The notes beneath the pieces were generated by a model that was not told where the DNA came from, searched no databases, and was given only the letters and a program-made list of their open reading frames with translations. Below are positions 1 to 62,112 of a stretch of 64,000 nucleotides of DNA, piece by piece. The translations under genes and the position numbers were made by a program. The first letter of the stretch is position 1, and each line of letters begins with the position of its first letter. Source of the DNA: Sandaracinobacter neustonicus (GTDB lineage Bacteria; Pseudomonadota; Alphaproteobacteria; Sphingomonadales; Sphingomonadaceae); assembly GCF_006385875.1 (NCBI RefSeq), contig NZ_VFSU01000028.1, forward strand, positions 124,001 through 188,000, read 5' to 3'.

Positions 1-695
1 GCACCCGGGGCATCGGCGAAGCCGTCTGCACGGGGCTGAAGGCTGCGGGCTTCAGCGTGGCGGCGGTTTATGTGGGATCGGATGAGCGGGCGGCGGACTT
101 CACCGCGCGCACCGGAATCAAGGCGTGGAAGTTCAACGTGGCCGATCATCAGGCCGTGCTGGACGGCGTGGCCGCGATCGAAGCGGAGCTTGGTCCGGTG
201 GATGTCGCGGTGAACAACGCCGGGATCACCCGCGACGGCACGCTGCTGAAGATGAGCTTTGAGGCGTGGAAAGAAGTGATCGACGTGAATCTGGGCGGCT
301 GCTTCAACATCGCCAAGGCGGTGTTCCCGGGCATGCGGCAGCGCGGCTGGGGCCGGATCGTCAACATCGGCAGCATCAACGGGCAGGCCGGGCAATATGG
401 GCAGGTGAACTATGCGGCTGCGAAAAGCGGCATTCACGGCTTCACTAAGGCGCTGGCGCAGGAAGGCGCGAAATTCGGGGTGACGGTGAACGCCATCGCG
501 CCGGGCTATATCGACACCGACATGGTGGCAGCGGTGCCGCCGGATGTGCTGGAAAAGATCGTGGCGAAAATCCCGGTGGGGCGGCTGGGCCATGCCGAGG
601 AAATCGCACGGGCAGTGGTGTTTCTGGCGGGTGAGGATGCCGGGTTTATCACAGGCAGCACGATGAGTGTGAATGGCGGACAGCATATGTACTGA
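1..695 (+). CDS. phaB: Acetoacetyl-CoA reductase (PhaB), 5' end cut by window
   Basis: NADPH-dependent reduction of acetoacetyl-CoA to (R)-3-hydroxybutyryl-CoA for polyhydroxyalkanoate synthesis, in the cytoplasm. The frame is open from base 3, and its first residues TRGIG are the end of the Rossmann glycine motif, so only about the first 15 residues are missing. Further on are NNAGIT, the catalytic Ser in NIGSINGQ, the YAAAK Tyr-x-x-x-Lys pair followed by SGIHGFTKALAQEG, and the C-terminal NGGQHMY. This combination is typical of PhaB rather than of FabG. No other PHA gene follows; phaA or phaC may lie to the left of the window. A terminator sits about 100 bases downstream inside a repeat element. 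Confidence 0.9.
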   Translation, partial: TRGIGEAVCTGLKAAGFSVAAVYVGSDERAADFTARTGIKAWKFNVADHQAVLDGVAAIEAELGPVDVAVNNAGITRDGTLLKMSFEAWKEVIDVNLGGCFNIAKAVFPGMRQRGWGRIVNIGSINGQAGQYGQVNYAAAKSGIHGFTKALAQEGAKFGVTVNAIAPGYIDTDMVAAVPPDVLEKIVAKIPVGRLGHAEEIARAVVFLAGEDAGFITGSTMSVNGGQHMY

Positions 696-696
696 C

Positions 697-885
697 AAAG
701 GCGGCCGGAATTAGCGCGAAGCGCTAACTTCCGGACTCGCCGAAGTCACGGCCGGCGGAATCGGCGATCTCTATCGCCGATATCCGGCCGACGGCGCGGG
801 CTTTGCCCGCGTTTTTCTTTCTTTTCTTCCTTCTTCCCACACCCAACCAAAGCGGACTCGGCAGCTAAGCTGCCGGCCGCTATAC
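697..885 (+). repeat. Composite multi-hairpin repeat, copy 1
   Basis: A block of about 185 bp filling the space between phaB and the next co-oriented gene. In order it holds a long hairpin (TTAGCGC-GAA-GCGCTAA at 711-727, extended outward by CCGGAA/TTCCGG), a GGCGAT..ATCGCC hairpin near 763-777, a terminator-like hairpin with a T-rich tail (796-824), a pyrimidine-rich run, and a final GCGGACTCG-GGCAGC-TAA-GCTGCC-GGCCGC segment ending just before the next start codon. A second copy lies at 55261-55443 on the minus strand and a split third copy at 61755-62112. Stem sequences differ between copies but pairing is kept. Confidence 0.85.
796..824 (+). terminator. Rho-independent terminator after phaB
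   Basis: A perfect 6-bp stem GCGGGC-TTT-GCCCGC (796-810) is followed by GTTTTTCTTTC, the usual GC-rich hairpin plus U-tract. It lies about 100 bases after the phaB stop, inside the composite repeat, so it probably ends the phaB transcript. Confidence 0.75.
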
Positions 886-1611: not shown

Positions 1612-2849
1612 TATTCGGCGGCTTTCACATAGGGGATGGGCAGCCCGTCGGCCGTGGGCGTGGCTTCGAATTCCGAACCTTGCCGCAGGATCTGCCGGCC
1701 GATGGCATATTTATGCACTTCGGTGGGGCCATCATACAGGCGGAACGGGCGCATGTCGCGATAGATCATTTCCACGACGGTTTCGTCCGTCACGCCGATG
1801 CCGCCCAGCACCTGCACGCAGCGATCCGTCACCTGGAACAGCCGTTCGGAGATTTCGGATTTTGCGATGGAGCTTTCGTGGCGGCCCTTAATGCCCTGAT
1901 CCATCAGCCATGCGGTCTGCCATGTCAGCAGGCGGCTCACTTTCAGGTCGATCTCATTCTGGGCCAGCATGAACGACACGCCCTGATGCTCGCCGATGGG
2001 TTTGCCAAACGCGGTGCGGGTGCGGGCATGCTCGATGGCGATGCTGTGCGCGCGGGCGGCTGCCCCCAGCCAGCGCATGCAGTGCGTCATCCGCGCGGGT
2101 GCCAGCCGCATCTGCGCATAGCGGAACGCCTGCCCCACCTCACCCAGCAGCGCGCTGGCGGGCAGCTTCAGATTGTTGAAGCGCACCACGCCATGCCCTT
2201 CGACATAGTTGCGGTCCATCGAGTTCATCACCCGCTCGATCTCGATTCCCGGCGTGTCGCCATCGCACAGGAACAGGGTGGGGCCATCCGGCCCATGCGA
2301 ATTGGGGAGAACACGGGCCATGATGATCCATGTTTTCGCGCCGTTGGCCCCGGTGATCAGCCATTTCAGCCCGTTGATGGTGAAGTGGCTGCCATCGAAC
2401 AGGGCCTCTGTTTTCAGCTGCGCCGGATCAGAACCGGCACCCTCCGGCTCCGTCATTGCGAAGACGGAGCGCTGGTGCCCCTGCACCACCGGCTTCAGCC
2501 AGCGTTCGGCCTGATCGGGGCGGCAGATTTTCGAAAGGATATACATATTCCCCTCGTCCGGCGCGGCGCAGTTCATCGCCACCGGGCCAAGGGTGGACCA
2601 GCCCGAGGCTTCCAGCACCACGGCGATTTCGATGTGGGAAAGCCCCTTGCCGCCGAAAGTGGTGGGGCATTGCAGAGAGAGCAGATCGGCCGCGCGGGCC
2701 TTTTCCACCATCTCCTGCCGCAGCTCGTCCGTTGGGCCGTGCTGAGTCAGGCGCGGGTCGCGTTCATAAGGGACGATCTCGTCAATCACGAACTTCCGGG
2801 TGCGCGCGGCGAGTGCCGCAAGTTCGGGGGAAATGGAAAAGTCGATCAT
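1611..2849 (-). CDS. Acyl-CoA dehydrogenase, ACAD10/11 (LvaC-like) type
   Basis: FAD-dependent acyl-CoA dehydrogenase fold protein of 412 aa. Family features are FAMTEPEGAGSDP (FAD/substrate loop), the RTAFGKPIGEHQ and QVLGGIGVTDET segments, and RLYDGPTEVHK near residues 371-379. The catalytic position here is Asp (D373, YDGPTEVH) rather than the Glu of straight-chain acyl-CoA dehydrogenases, as in the ACAD10/ACAD11 group. The gene overlaps the upstream kinase-like gene by 4 bases (ATGA). In Pseudomonas levulinate catabolism the LvaA kinase phosphorylates 4-hydroxyvaleryl-CoA and the LvaC dehydrogenase then eliminates phosphate; vertebrate ACAD10/11 carry both domains in one chain. A matching role on 4-hydroxyacyl-CoA is inferred. 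Confidence 0.85.
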   Translation of the reverse strand: MIDFSISPELAALAARTRKFVIDEIVPYERDPRLTQHGPTDELRQEMVEKARAADLLSLQCPTTFGGKGLSHIEIAVVLEASGWSTLGPVAMNCAAPDEGNMYILSKICRPDQAERWLKPVVQGHQRSVFAMTEPEGAGSDPAQLKTEALFDGSHFTINGLKWLITGANGAKTWIIMARVLPNSHGPDGPTLFLCDGDTPGIEIERVMNSMDRNYVEGHGVVRFNNLKLPASALLGEVGQAFRYAQMRLAPARMTHCMRWLGAAARAHSIAIEHARTRTAFGKPIGEHQGVSFMLAQNEIDLKVSRLLTWQTAWLMDQGIKGRHESSIAKSEISERLFQVTDRCVQVLGGIGVTDETVVEMIYRDMRPFRLYDGPTEVHKYAIGRQILRQGSEFEATPTADGLPIPYVKAAE

Positions 2850-7006: not shown

Positions 7007-7514
7007 GGGGTGGGCTGCGGGTTTTTTGCCTCCGGCGGGCAGGGAAATGATTTCCCTGCACCCTCAAAATTGGCGTTGCGCCCGAATTCCAGCATCGTCT
7101 GAGTAATCAGCTTTGATTGCCTGCGGCGCACCGGAGGCTCTCTCTCCCCGCTGGGGAGAGAGGTGGAGAGAGGGGAGCAACGCCGGGCCTGACCAACAAA
7201 CCCTCCCCACCCGCTCAGCCTGAGCTTGTCGAAGGCCCCTGAGAAAACCGCCACCCTCTCCACCAACCCCCCAACGTCACCCCGGATCAAGCCCGGGGTG
7301 ACGTTGGGGGGAGGATGGTGGAGCACGCCCAAAAGCGCCGCAGGCAATCAATCCCAGCCTCGCACCAAGCGGATGGCCCCCACCCCAACCCCTCCCCTAA
7401 AGGAGGAGGGGCTACATAAAAGTCCGGGGGTGCAGGGGCGTCACGCCCCTGCCGGGTCTCGGGCAGAGCCCGAGCCGCCGGAGGCCTCCAGCGCCTCCAC
7501 CAGCACCCACACCC
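7007..7514. repeat. Mosaic intergenic repeat, copy A
   Basis: 508 bases without a gene, between convergent alkylsulfatase and coaA. Modules in order: CCTCCGGCGGGCAGGGAAAT with an inverted GGGAAATGATTTCCC (7042-7056); TTGATTGCCTGCGGCGC (7113-7129), whose exact inverse GCGCCGCAGGCAATCAA is at 7335-7351; between them a CTCTCCCC-rich hairpin, one sphingomonad REP unit (7211-7235) and a long hairpin (7267-7311); then CCCCACCCCAACCCCTCCCC-TAAA-GGAGGAGGGGC (about 7379-7412) and GCAGGGGCGTCACGCCCCTGC (7432-7452). The same modules recur at 13.6, 30.4 (inverted) and 51.2 kb. Confidence 0.8.
7267..7311. repeat. Perfect 19-bp inverted repeat (hairpin)
   Basis: Arms 7267-7285 and 7293-7311 are exact reverse complements, beginning CCCCCCAACGTCACCCCGG, with a 7-base loop. 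There is no adjacent T-run on either strand, so it reads as a REP/BIME-like palindrome rather than an intrinsic terminator, although it lies between convergent genes. Confidence 0.8.
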
Positions 7515-51182: not shown

Positions 51183-51802
51183 CGGTTTGAGAGGGAAGGC
51201 CAGGCTTCTGCCGTTGGAACCCGGCCCGCGTTTTTTTGCCTCCGGCGGGCAGGGAAATGATTTCCCTGCACCCTCAACATTGGCGTTGCGCCAAAATTCC
51301 AGCACAGCGTGCGAGTGATTAGATTCGATTGCCTGCGGCGCTATGAAGCCCTCTCCCCCTGCAAGGGGGAGAGTAGGAGAGGGGGTGTCACCGGTTGGCC
51401 TGATCTACCTCCATCCCCACAAACCGCTGCCACCCCAACCCGCTCCCCAACTAGCTGTCCACCCGCTCAGGCTGAGCTTGTCGAAGCCCCCGAAGCTAAG
51501 GCGCAATGGCTGAGTTCGGGGACATGCTCCGCGCGGCTTCGACAAGCTCAGCCTGAGCGGGGAGGGCAGCGTGAGCATGGGATGGATAGCGGGACACCGC
51601 CCAAAAAGCGCCGCAGGCCATAACTCCCAACCTCGCGCCCGGCGGAGGACCCCCACCCCAACCCCTCCCTAAAGGAGGAGGAGCTAAAAGTTTGGGGGTG
51701 CAGGGGCGTCACGCCCCTGCCCGGGGTCCCCATGAACTTGTTCATGGGGTGGGGACGGGGGAGTTTGAGGGAGCAGAGCTCCCTCAATTTCCACGCGCAG
51801 CG
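51183..51802. repeat. Mosaic intergenic repeat, copy D
   Basis: 620 bases without a gene between convergent tag and the dioxygenase gene. Modules: CCTCCGGCGGGCAGGGAAAT with GGGAAATGATTTCCC (51252-51266), GATTGCCTGCGGCGC (51327-51341), a CTCTCCCCCTGCAAGGGGGAGAG hairpin, a REP inverted pair (51463-51560), GCGCCGCAGGC (51608-51618), CCCCACCCCAACCCCTCCCT-AAA-GGAGGAG (about 51650-51681) and GCAGGGGCGTCACGCCCCTG (51701-51720), then CCCCATGAACTTGTTCATGGGG (51728-51749), an extra hairpin absent from the other copies. Confidence 0.8.
51463..51560. repeat. Sphingomonad REP inverted pair
   Basis: Arms 51463-51488 and 51535-51560 are perfect 26-base reverse complements; the right arm contains GCTTCGACAAGCTCAGCCTG. 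Spacer 46 bases. Related pair at 61899-61998 and a single unit at 7211-7235. Confidence 0.8.
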
Positions 51803-60100: not shown

Positions 60101-61753
60101 ATGAGCAATCGTGAAGCAATGCCCTATGATCTGGTGATCGTGGGCGCCGGCCCGGCAGGGCTTTCGGCCGCGATCCGGGCCAAGCAGGTTGCGGCCGAAA
60201 AGGGCCTCGATCTGTCCGTCTGCGTGCTGGAGAAGGGCTCTGAAGTGGGGGCCCATATCCTCTCCGGCGCGGTGGTGGACCCAAAGGGGCTGGACGAGCT
60301 GATCCCCGACTGGCGCGATCAGGGCTGCCCGATGGCGGAAACCCCGGTGACGGAGAATCATCACTGGGTGCTGACCAAGGGTAAGAAATACGACTTCCCG
60401 CACATCATCACGCCCAGCTTCATGCACAACAAGGGCACCTACACCGGCAGCCTTGGCAATCTGTGCCGCTGGCTGGCGCAACAGGCCGAAGCGCTGGGGG
60501 TGGAAATCTTCCCCGGCTTCCCGGCCGCTGAAGTGCTGTTCAACGAAGATGGTTCGGTGAAGGGCGTCGCCACCGGCGACATGGGTGTGGAGCGCGACGG
60601 CACGCACGGCCCGAACTATCAGCCGGGGCTGGAGCTGCACGCGAAATACACCTTCTTCGCCGAAGGGGTGCGCGGGCATCTGTCCAAGCAGCTGATCAAG
60701 CATTTCGATCTGGCGAAAGACAGCCAGCCGCAGGTTTATGGCATTGGTATCAAGGAATTGTGGGATATCGATCCGGCCAAGCATGTGCCGGGGCGGGTGA
60801 TCCACACGCAGGGCTGGCCGCTTTCCGATGCGTGGGGCGGTGGCTTCCTCTATCATCAGGCCAATAATCAGGTGGCCTTGGGTTTCGTGGTGGCGCTGTC
60901 GTACCGCAACCCGCATCTCTCTCCGTTCGACGAGATGCAGCGTTGGAAGACCCACCCGGAAATCAAGGCGATTCTGGAGGGCGGCCGCCGGGTTTCCTAT
61001 GGCGCGCGCGCCATCAACGAGGGCGGCTGGCAGGCGGTGCCGAAGCTGACGATGCCCGGCGCGACGCTGATCGGCTGTTCCGCCGGGTTCGTGAACGTGC
61101 CCCGGATCAAGGGCACCCACACCGCGATGAAGACGGGGATGATGGCGGCGGAAGCCGCCGTGGATGCCATCGCCAGCCAGCGGCAGGGCGACGAGCTGAC
61201 AGCCTACAGCGCCGCCTATGAATCGAGCTGGGTGTATGAGGAGCTGCGGCTGGTGCGCAACACCGAGCCTCTGGTGAGCAAGTTCGGCGGCACGGTGGGC
61301 ACGCTGCTGGCGGGCGCGACGATGTGGGCGGAATGGCTGGGGCTGCGCATGCCCTTCACGCTGAAGCATGAGCCGGACAACACCAAAATCTGGCGCAAGG
61401 AAGCCTGCTTCCCGATCGACTATCCCAAGCCGGACGGGAAGATCAGCTTCGACAAGCTGAGCAGCGTGTTCCTTTCCAACACCAATCACGAGGAAAACCA
61501 GCCGGTCCACCTGAAGCTGACGGACCCGACGGTGCCGATCCGCATCAACCTGCCTTTGTATGACGAACCGGCGCAGCGTTACTGCCCGGCCGGGGTGTAT
61601 GAAGTGGTGGGGCAGGACACAGGCGAGCCGAGGTTCCAGATCAACGCGCAGAATTGCGTGCATTGCAAGACGTGCGACATCAAGGATCCGACGCAGAATA
61701 TTACGTGGGTTGCGCCGGAGGGGGGCGGGGGGCCGAATTATCCGAACATGTGA
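60101..61753 (+). CDS. Electron transfer flavoprotein-ubiquinone oxidoreductase
   Basis: 550-aa ETF-QO, linking acyl-CoA dehydrogenases through ETF to the quinone pool at the inner membrane. FAD-binding DLVIVGAGPAGLSAAIRAK is at residues about 10-28; EVGAHILSGAVVDPKGLDEL follows; the C-terminal 4Fe-4S site is C495 (RYCPAGVYE) with C519, C522 and C525 (NCVHCKTCDIKDP). Full length. The ATG has a GGAAGAGAG site. It diverges from the UDG-family gene. It would accept electrons from dehydrogenases such as the ACAD at 1.6-2.8 kb if that enzyme is redox active. Confidence 0.95.
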   Translation: MSNREAMPYDLVIVGAGPAGLSAAIRAKQVAAEKGLDLSVCVLEKGSEVGAHILSGAVVDPKGLDELIPDWRDQGCPMAETPVTENHHWVLTKGKKYDFPHIITPSFMHNKGTYTGSLGNLCRWLAQQAEALGVEIFPGFPAAEVLFNEDGSVKGVATGDMGVERDGTHGPNYQPGLELHAKYTFFAEGVRGHLSKQLIKHFDLAKDSQPQVYGIGIKELWDIDPAKHVPGRVIHTQGWPLSDAWGGGFLYHQANNQVALGFVVALSYRNPHLSPFDEMQRWKTHPEIKAILEGGRRVSYGARAINEGGWQAVPKLTMPGATLIGCSAGFVNVPRIKGTHTAMKTGMMAAEAAVDAIASQRQGDELTAYSAAYESSWVYEELRLVRNTEPLVSKFGGTVGTLLAGATMWAEWLGLRMPFTLKHEPDNTKIWRKEACFPIDYPKPDGKISFDKLSSVFLSNTNHEENQPVHLKLTDPTVPIRINLPLYDEPAQRYCPAGVYEVVGQDTGEPRFQINAQNCVHCKTCDIKDPTQNITWVAPEGGGGPNYPNM

Positions 61754-61754
61754 G

Positions 61755-62112
61755 TGAAGGCGGCTGCGATTATGGCGAAGCCATAACTCGCAGACTCGCC
61801 GAAATGTCGGCCGGCTGAGTCGGCGATCTCTATCGCCGGCCAGCCCCACGCGGCGCGCTGTACTGCCGCTCCTATCTCCCCCACTCAGACCGATTTTCCC
61901 GCTCGGGCTGAGCTTGTCGAAGCCCATGGAGTATGCCCCCTACGGCTTGAGCCGTTGTGCTTCCACGTCTGGGGCTTCGACAAGCTCAGCCTGAGCGGGG
62001 ACTGAGGAAGCGGGACAGAGGACAGGTGAGCGATGCCTGTTGGAAAAGGATGGAATCACCCTTCTTTCCGTCACCGCAGCGGACTCGCAGGCTTTGCCTG
62101 CGGCCGCGACCC
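61755..62112 (+). repeat. Composite multi-hairpin repeat, copy 3, split
   Basis: 375 gene-free bases between ETF-QO and the GH109-type gene. The 5' half (61755-61839) matches copy 1: outer stem CTGCGA/TCGCAG around TTATGGC-GAA-GCCATAA (61770-61786) and the GGCGATCTCTATCGCC hairpin. The 3' half (about 62061-62112) matches the tail: pyrimidine-rich run, GCGGACTCG and GCAGGC-TTT-GCCTGC-GGCCGC. Between them lie about 220 unrelated bases containing a REP inverted pair; the terminator hairpin is lost. Confidence 0.75.
61899..61998. repeat. Sphingomonad REP inverted pair inside split element
   Basis: Left arm 61899-61924 and right arm 61973-61998 are 26-base reverse complements with one mismatch; the right arm holds GCTTCGACAAGCTCAGCCTG. 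Spacer 48 bases. Same family as the pair at 51463-51560. Confidence 0.8.

Follow-up and report, generated by a model that had tools for sequence, protein, structure and literature searches.

The window analysed here, i.e., the whole stretch of 64,000 nt, carries three copies of an element with four ordered hairpins, P1 to P4, which recurs at gene ends in this and related sphingomonad genomes. Its stems covary, its copies mostly start at the last bases of the upstream gene, its first helix is mostly closed by a foot complementary to that gene's own tail, and some of its positions are common to several species. With a probability of roughly one half (about 0.48), we propose that the element is a clade-specific structured 3′-end RNA module that forms the tail of the upstream transcript, with P3 and the following T/pyrimidine tract as the terminator, and it is best read as a module that also disperses like REP/BIME repeats; transcription, termination, sealing and a binding factor are what we infer from the DNA. 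An earlier note had pointed out the three blocks, and both the pairing of the P1 foot with the gene's own tail and the copies after tRNA, RNase P RNA, and SRP RNA genes go beyond it.

Copies in the window

A search of the window with the P1 pattern TTANNGCGAAGCNNTAACT gave three exact matches, and five when up to three mismatches were allowed, against 0.32 expected. All three blocks described earlier were present with the stems attributed to them, and copy 1 folded at −98 kcal/mol (z −7.4 relative to shuffles) into the hairpins P1 to P4, the parts of which are collected in Table 1. The terminator claimed for the middle of copies 1 and 2 was recovered in both as a terminator-like hairpin with a T tract. 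The extent given for the first block, 697-885, needed correction at its left end, where the unit begins earlier, inside the stop codon. As for the gene pairs named as neighbours, CorA followed by radical SAM and ETF-QO followed by GH109 agreed with our calls, and phaB followed by RHH agreed as an SDR-family gene followed by RHH_4.

Table 1. Features of the three copies in the window (positions of the window; strand as read)
Feature	Position	Strand	Basis and remarks
Copy 1 host gene, SDR family	3..695	+	ORF call and Pfam adh_short_C2; truncated by the window's left end; stop TGA 693-695
Copy 1 hairpin P1	693..748	+	pattern and fold; foot scored as 4 bp with 3x3 loop
Copy 1 P1 gene-fitted foot	TGAC 693-696/GTCA 745-748	+	starts within stop codon
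Copy 1 P1 3x3 loop	AAA 697-699/GAA 742-744	+	
Copy 1 P1 short stem	GGCG 700-703/CGCC 738-741	+	
Copy 1 P1 internal loop	G704 versus ACT 735-737	+	
Copy 1 P1 upper stem	705-717/721-734; apical GAA 718-720	+	
Copy 1 hairpin P2 (CGGC CGGC ... G CCG ACG)	749..793	+	fold and alignment
Copy 1 P3 terminator-like hairpin and tracts	795..848	+	hairpin 795-811; T tract 812-816; pyrimidine-rich to about 848
Copy 1 hairpin P4	851..881	+	ACT/G internal loop of P1 turned round: ACT 856-858, G876
Copy 2 after corA, P1-P4	55264..55447	-	stop TAG 55442-55440
Copy 2 foot	GGC 55447-55445/GCC 55394-55392	-	by eye
Copy 3 P1 and P2 after ETF-QO gene	61746..61838	+	stop 61751-61753
Copy 3 foot	ACAT 61746-61749 with ATGT	+	by eye
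Copy 3 P4	62078..62107	+	separated from P2 by nested unrelated palindromic repeat

In copy 3, P3 was not clearly visible, and the covariance model described below aligned the stretch all the same. The foot of this copy scored just 1 bp in the position-wise pairing test because its loop exceeds the limit of the test. The palindromic repeat nested between its P2 and P4 (GGCTTCGACAAGCTCAGCC; window 61906-61991) was also found at window 51470-51553 and 7218-7236, in inverted pairs at two places, and the core of this repeat gave 31 matches (≤1 mismatch) on both strands of 854 kb of the window genome.

Family size and range

The family unit is about 190 bp long, with single hairpins of about 20 to 55 bp. 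A nucleotide search of the window genome gave 26 matches. A covariance model of P1-P3, the kind of search that the earlier note had asked for, was then built from 16 copies and returned 34 matches at E ≤ 1 in the same genome (31 of these at E ≤ 1.2e-7). Copies were also found in related sphingomonad genomes, with 89 matches in the same-genus genome G003. The element was present in all six genomes of the genus and in none of 24 genomes from other families of the order (model R1). Within the GTDB family, 21 of 149 sampled genomes (14 of 96 genera) gave matches, and the two carriers among 190 genomes of the class sample were the window genome and a second genome of the same family. With at most 25 candidates scored per genome for the family and at most 19 for the class, these surveys give minimum copy numbers. 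A search with one exact pattern gave 17 stretches, and the carriers identified by name include Sandaracinobacteroides sayramensis, S. hominis, and a Sandarakinorhabdus MAG.

The main set comprised 123 distinct copies from four genomes of one genus, namely 30 of 31 from the window genome (G000), 44 of at least 53 from G001, 9 of at least 14 from G002, and 40 of 89 from G003. Weak copies are under-represented in this set, which is no random sample, because mostly the best-scoring copies were taken. The gene calls came from a small codon-bias script in place of a standard annotator. Rfam 15 gave no family at gathering score in the window (best sub-threshold E-value 0.32, over copy 1), so that a known Rfam family was rejected, and no earlier description of the element was found in the literature searched, most subscription papers being outside the reach of that search.

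Structure and covariation

From its base upward, P1 consists of the gene-fitted foot, a purine-rich 3x3 loop, a short stem, an unpaired G opposite ACT, and a long upper stem. The 5′ side of the 3x3 loop is GAA in 37 of 91 copies and the 3′ side GCA or GAA in 59 of 91, and the short stem is commonly GGCG/CGCC or GCCG/CGGC. P2 follows a few bases after P1 and has a constant CGG and ACG frame, unpaired in the model, of which the outermost CG/CG may pair. P4 starts at a median of about 29 nt past P3 and carries the same ACT/G loop as P1, turned round; its exact motif was found in 75 of 123 copies versus 1 of 121 control stretches. The outer pairs of P4 covary as well (run 1.67 versus 0.67 when permuted, maximum 1.05).

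Covariation in P1-P3 was assessed on an alignment of 118 matches from eight genera (A4, the source of model R2), two weak rows of which were taken for reverse-strand artefacts. Pairing was kept in 95.8% of the cells, and 35 of the 37 pairs of the model showed double changes. The double-changed cells numbered 1044. Shuffling the columns gave 285 on average and sliding the partners no more than 230, and these controls are the guard against an alignment that was fitted to the model and flatters pair counts. The stems vary, whereas the unpaired core is near fixed (ACT 94-96%, CGG 97-98%, ACG 94-96%, lone G 90%). G008 has a longer upper P1 stem of other sequence, with the loops and P2 kept. Further copies exist and their stems covary, the two points on which the earlier note had staked its claim of selection on structure.

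The strand test for RNA versus DNA, in which G-T pairs are set against A-C pairs, gave a mixed outcome. G-T exceeded A-C in P1 (31 versus 12, of 2126 cells) and in P3 (12 versus 10), whereas A-C exceeded G-T in P2 (51 versus 41, with 41 of the A-C pairs in one column thought to be misassigned) and at foot positions 1-4 (23 versus 11).

Position and host genes

A same-strand gene lay upstream of 115 of the 123 copies, and P1 started within −30 to +25 nt of a same-strand stop codon in 98, mostly at −2 to +7. The remaining 25 copies were read singly: five follow RNA genes, one stands in tandem behind another copy, and, by eye, about nine come after an ordinary terminator-like stretch and about ten are without a recognised host. 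The RNA hosts among the 25, identified by ARAGORN and Rfam, are tRNA-Phe, tRNA-Ala, RNase P RNA (twice), and SRP RNA, and further copies follow tRNA-Pro (window genome and G004), tRNA-Val (G005), tRNA-Gly (G067), and RNase P RNA (G008). The distance from RNA gene to element ranged from a 1-base overlap to 14 nt; it was 5 nt twice and a 1-base overlap once for RNase P RNA, and 1 nt for SRP RNA.

The next gene was convergent for 76 of the 123 copies, co-directional for 43 and not called for 4. The earlier statement that the unit always lies between co-oriented genes thus describes the three window copies and fails for the family. Of the suggested composite unit, the part that ends the upstream transcript agrees with the anchor at the 3′ end of the upstream gene, and the part that supplies the leader of the next gene was rejected because of this anchor and the orientation of the next gene; a promoter-like site was found in neither of the two regions scanned, around copies 1 and 2. 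The alternative of a REP-like dispersed unit gained support from the many copies at gene ends.

Pfam assignments of 24 of the 26 stop-anchored hosts in the window genome include Rho, nucleoside diphosphate kinase, L7/L12, L33, S9, RNA polymerase omega, GcrA, BamE, and an iron-sulfur protein taken as SdhB, among others, with one host lacking a match.

Several loci stood out individually. The rho gene itself bears the element, with a 12-bp hairpin across its stop codon (L032, about 1620-1650, minus strand). Four copies lie within about 5 kb in L084 (G000:C28:37583-42875), after FabI-like, RNase P RNA, nucleoside diphosphate kinase, and HNH genes, and two of them face each other around one small gene. 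At L141, L174, L048, L164, L122, L146, L125, L130, and L159, copies lie a few bases past the tail of a terminator-like hairpin (by eye). Rfam matches to terC RNA and the serC leader occur near copies at L117:2811-2861 and L073:1433-1485, respectively.

The gene-fitted foot of P1

Beyond the 3x3 loop, P1 usually extends as a foot of about 4 bp, which is formed by the spacer and the tail of the host gene. An initial test by duplex energy was weak (own gene −8.9 versus −8.1 kcal/mol; 5 of 91 copies in the best 5%) because the constant CGGC block was counted. A position-wise test, chosen after this result and then repeated on further copies, was applied to 91 copies, i.e., the 98 stop-anchored ones minus seven with an ORF reaching ≥15 nt into P1. 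The Watson-Crick run with the own gene was 3.43 versus 2.08 with spacers permuted (z 14.8). When one copy per orthologue group was kept (62 copies), the values were 3.48 versus 2.13, and 0 of 20,000 permutations exceeded 2.65. In the second set, into which 60 of 84 further copies entered (the 84 including G004 and G005, of the same genus and new to the analysis), the run was 3.63 versus 2.37 when permuted (z 11.7). The foot measured ≥3 bp in 67 of the 91 copies and <3 bp in 24; it extended into the ORF in 55 and took in a base of the stop codon in 35.

The sdhB genes illustrate how tail and spacer change together, reading CGAGCC/GGCTCG in one species and CGCGCG/CGCGCG in another; the coding tails vary over four species, with a clear spacer match in G000, G001, and G008 and a less clear one in G002. 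By eye, the SRP RNA copy and the tRNA-Pro copy of the window genome also look like cases of a fitted foot. These results suggest a marker of transcript ends that is built to fit each host gene.

When a long spacer precedes P1, the coding tail and its inverted copy often form a hairpin of their own across the stop codon, with up to 12 perfect bp. Such hairpins of ≥6 bp were found in 11 of the 35 copies with a spacer of ≥6 nt (permuted mean 1.6, maximum 5, in 200 permutations). A genome-wide habit was rejected as the source, as element-free genes showed little excess of stop-spanning hairpins (22 versus 14.4 permuted; ≥6 bp, 343 genes). The 12 element genes of the same stretch gave no excess (3.33 versus 3.26) in this test, which takes loops of ≤14 nt and is blind to the P1 foot.

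P3 and its T-rich tract

P3 forms a GC hairpin, and the sequence after it is T/C-rich, with 60% T and 28% C over the initial 5 nt and G at ≤13% up to nt 20. At least five T among the eight bases after P3 were found in 95 of the 123 copies of the four genomes, 85 passed a stricter terminator criterion, and only 52 had a run of four T inside 12 nt. The tract was weak elsewhere (6 of 28 copies in G008, 1 of 5 in G101, and 1 of 4 in G162; 4 of 8 and 0 of 8 in the further same-genus genomes G004 and G005). Among 343 element-free gene ends in 854 kb of the window genome, 37 had a terminator-like site within 150 nt, versus 10 after shuffling. Since other terminator-like sites are few in this genome, the element may supply a large share of its intrinsic terminators.

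Conservation and turnover

Among the four genomes, 26 reciprocal-best-hit host groups bear the element in at least two, and the SDR (phaB) and ETF-QO genes bear it in all four. Across genera, hosts were recognised by eye from the C-terminal sequence: GroEL in G001, G004, G025, G015, and G157, which belong to four genera, and SdhB and RpoZ each in genomes from two genera. Across 854 kb of the window genome, a gene with the element was found for 16 of 27 query rows, which correspond to 9 of 19 distinct genes, and 10 of the 19 genes lacked it. A MITE would have terminal inverted repeats, a target-site duplication, and clean empty sites; by eye, these ten genes are too diverged to display an insertion point.

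Orthologous copies were somewhat more alike than non-orthologous ones over all columns (0.666 versus 0.568) and in P3 (0.598 versus 0.578). The stem TTAAGGC/GCCTTAA is present in 10 of the 30 copies of the window genome and absent from their listed orthologues. The moderate likeness of orthologues and this common stem type indicate that copies have been gained, lost and apparently homogenised; copies apparently exchange sequence or disperse inside a genome in REP/BIME fashion.

Proposed mechanism and alternatives

According to the RNA module model, P1 would start at the gene's final bases and mostly close on them by the gene-specific foot of about 4 bp, so that the helix would take in the region of the stop codon or, after an RNA gene, the 3′ end of the tRNA, RNase P RNA, or SRP RNA. 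P2 would come a few bases later, transcription would end at P3 and its T/pyrimidine tract, and P4 would repeat the internal loop of P1. To terminate and seal the transcripts of well-used operons and of stable RNAs is the most likely task of the module, and its conserved loops would be sites for a putative binding factor. We favour this reading because of the direction tied to the upstream gene, the frequent T tract, the housekeeping and stable-RNA hosts, and the conserved loops. Counting against it are the weak T tracts in several genomes, the 10 of 19 orthologous genes without the element, the location of P4 past the predicted 3′ end, the 24 short feet, and the scarcity of G-T pairs together with the excess of A-C over G-T in the foot, which are unexpected under RNA-only constraint. 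At about nine copies, moreover, P1 would lie outside the transcript because an ordinary terminator-like stretch precedes it.

A possible but rather unlikely alternative is that the element is a DNA repeat of the REP/BIME kind, i.e., a mosaic of palindromes whose stems and spacer tails arose by fold-back template switching in replication and not by RNA selection. The scarcity of G-T intermediates points to DNA-level pairing or template switching, for which PMC8794818 provides a precedent, but such copying would erase the unpaired loops (G/ACT, GAA/GMA) inside the stems. The perfect hairpins of 8-12 bp that copy coding tails across the stop codon, e.g., in rho, would be its natural products, whereas the foot mostly holds a slot of about 4 nt. 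Likewise, the stem type shared by window-genome copies and not by their listed orthologues fits such a repeat, while the greater likeness of orthologous copies and the window genome without a PF01797 match speak against it.

It is improbable that the element is a processing or RNA-chaperone site (of the RNase III/E, Hfq or ProQ type) that frees 3′-derived small RNAs, with P1 and the T/C tract as substrates: the long helix at 3′ ends, the T/C-rich tract after P3, and the placement at mature ends of stable RNAs would suit such a site, but P4 would be left unexplained, and no Rfam family was found at gathering score. A role in translation, with the element insulating or slowing ribosomes at termination as a ribosome termination structure or a stop-proximal REP, is highly improbable, since the start of P1 next to the stop codon, the position of ribosome termination structures beside stops (PMC7518266) and the stalling of ribosomes by REPs ≤15 nt from the stop (Liang 2015, as cited in PMC12306157) stand against copies after untranslated tRNA-Pro, -Phe, -Ala, -Val, -Gly, RNase P RNA, and SRP RNA, several of them with a fitted foot by eye, and these non-coding hosts rule out a translation-only role.

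The RNA module for function and the DNA repeat for spread may both hold, and stems may be kept up at the DNA level alongside the RNA reading. More tentatively, we suggest that the element is an undescribed class of structured RNA that caps transcription units in one sphingomonad clade, with a closing helix rebuilt at each site from the host's last bases and a putative factor acting on two mirrored G/ACU loops. If this is true, a single repeated element makes a tailored joint at every gene that it follows. Natural copies of one 3′-end structure, up to tens in a genome and refitted to coding and non-coding hosts, make it testable what palindromic repeats do at bacterial gene ends, and whether compensatory stem changes come about by RNA selection or by DNA template switching.

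Comparison with known systems

REP units are 20-40 bp in length and may be joined as BIME mosaics. The element resembles them in its many extragenic palindromic copies near gene 3′ ends and in having several palindromes per unit, and it differs in its ordered hairpins, its conserved internal loops, its gene-fitted foot, and a direction tied to the upstream gene. In size, the whole unit measures about 190 bp and its single hairpins about 20 to 55 bp. In PMC3733652, REP/BIME and CGTC-tagged palindromic repeats are described as dispersed extragenic palindromes downstream of genes, and the location of the element between co-directional and convergent ORFs is a further likeness to them. A search for PF01797 (Y1, the RAYT transposase) gave no match at E ≤ 0.001 in the window genome, with the control positive in 5 of 14 genomes, and a RAYT-driven REP was ruled out for this genome. 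The minus-strand CGTC that precedes P2 (plus-strand GACG: G 99%, ACG 94-96%) recalls CGTC-tagged REPs. However, CGTC families have stems of 8-9 bp beginning with AT and mostly CCA tails (PMC3733652), whereas in the element P2 begins with CGG/CCG and the tag occurs without the AT stem and CCA tail, so a CGTC REP was rejected.

The GC hairpin of P3 and the T-rich tract of 95 of the 123 copies make the element similar to an intrinsic terminator, to which it adds P1, P2, and P4, and the tract is mostly absent in G008 and G005. According to PMC7518266, ribosome termination structures occur directly downstream of stop codons, with an enrichment behind operon-terminal genes; the element shares with them a stable structure right after the stop codon (98 of the 123 copies), but it is a defined family with sequence motifs and also follows non-coding RNA genes. 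RNA hairpins made and maintained by template switching have perfect stems, compensatory changes, and few G-U steps (PMC8794818), and these traits are found in the element, which in contrast keeps unpaired loops and a fixed architecture across genera. Because the tested features of these families come out mixed, we keep the element apart from them: it is partly terminator-like, partly like a ribosome termination structure, and partly BIME-like, and a plain member of none.
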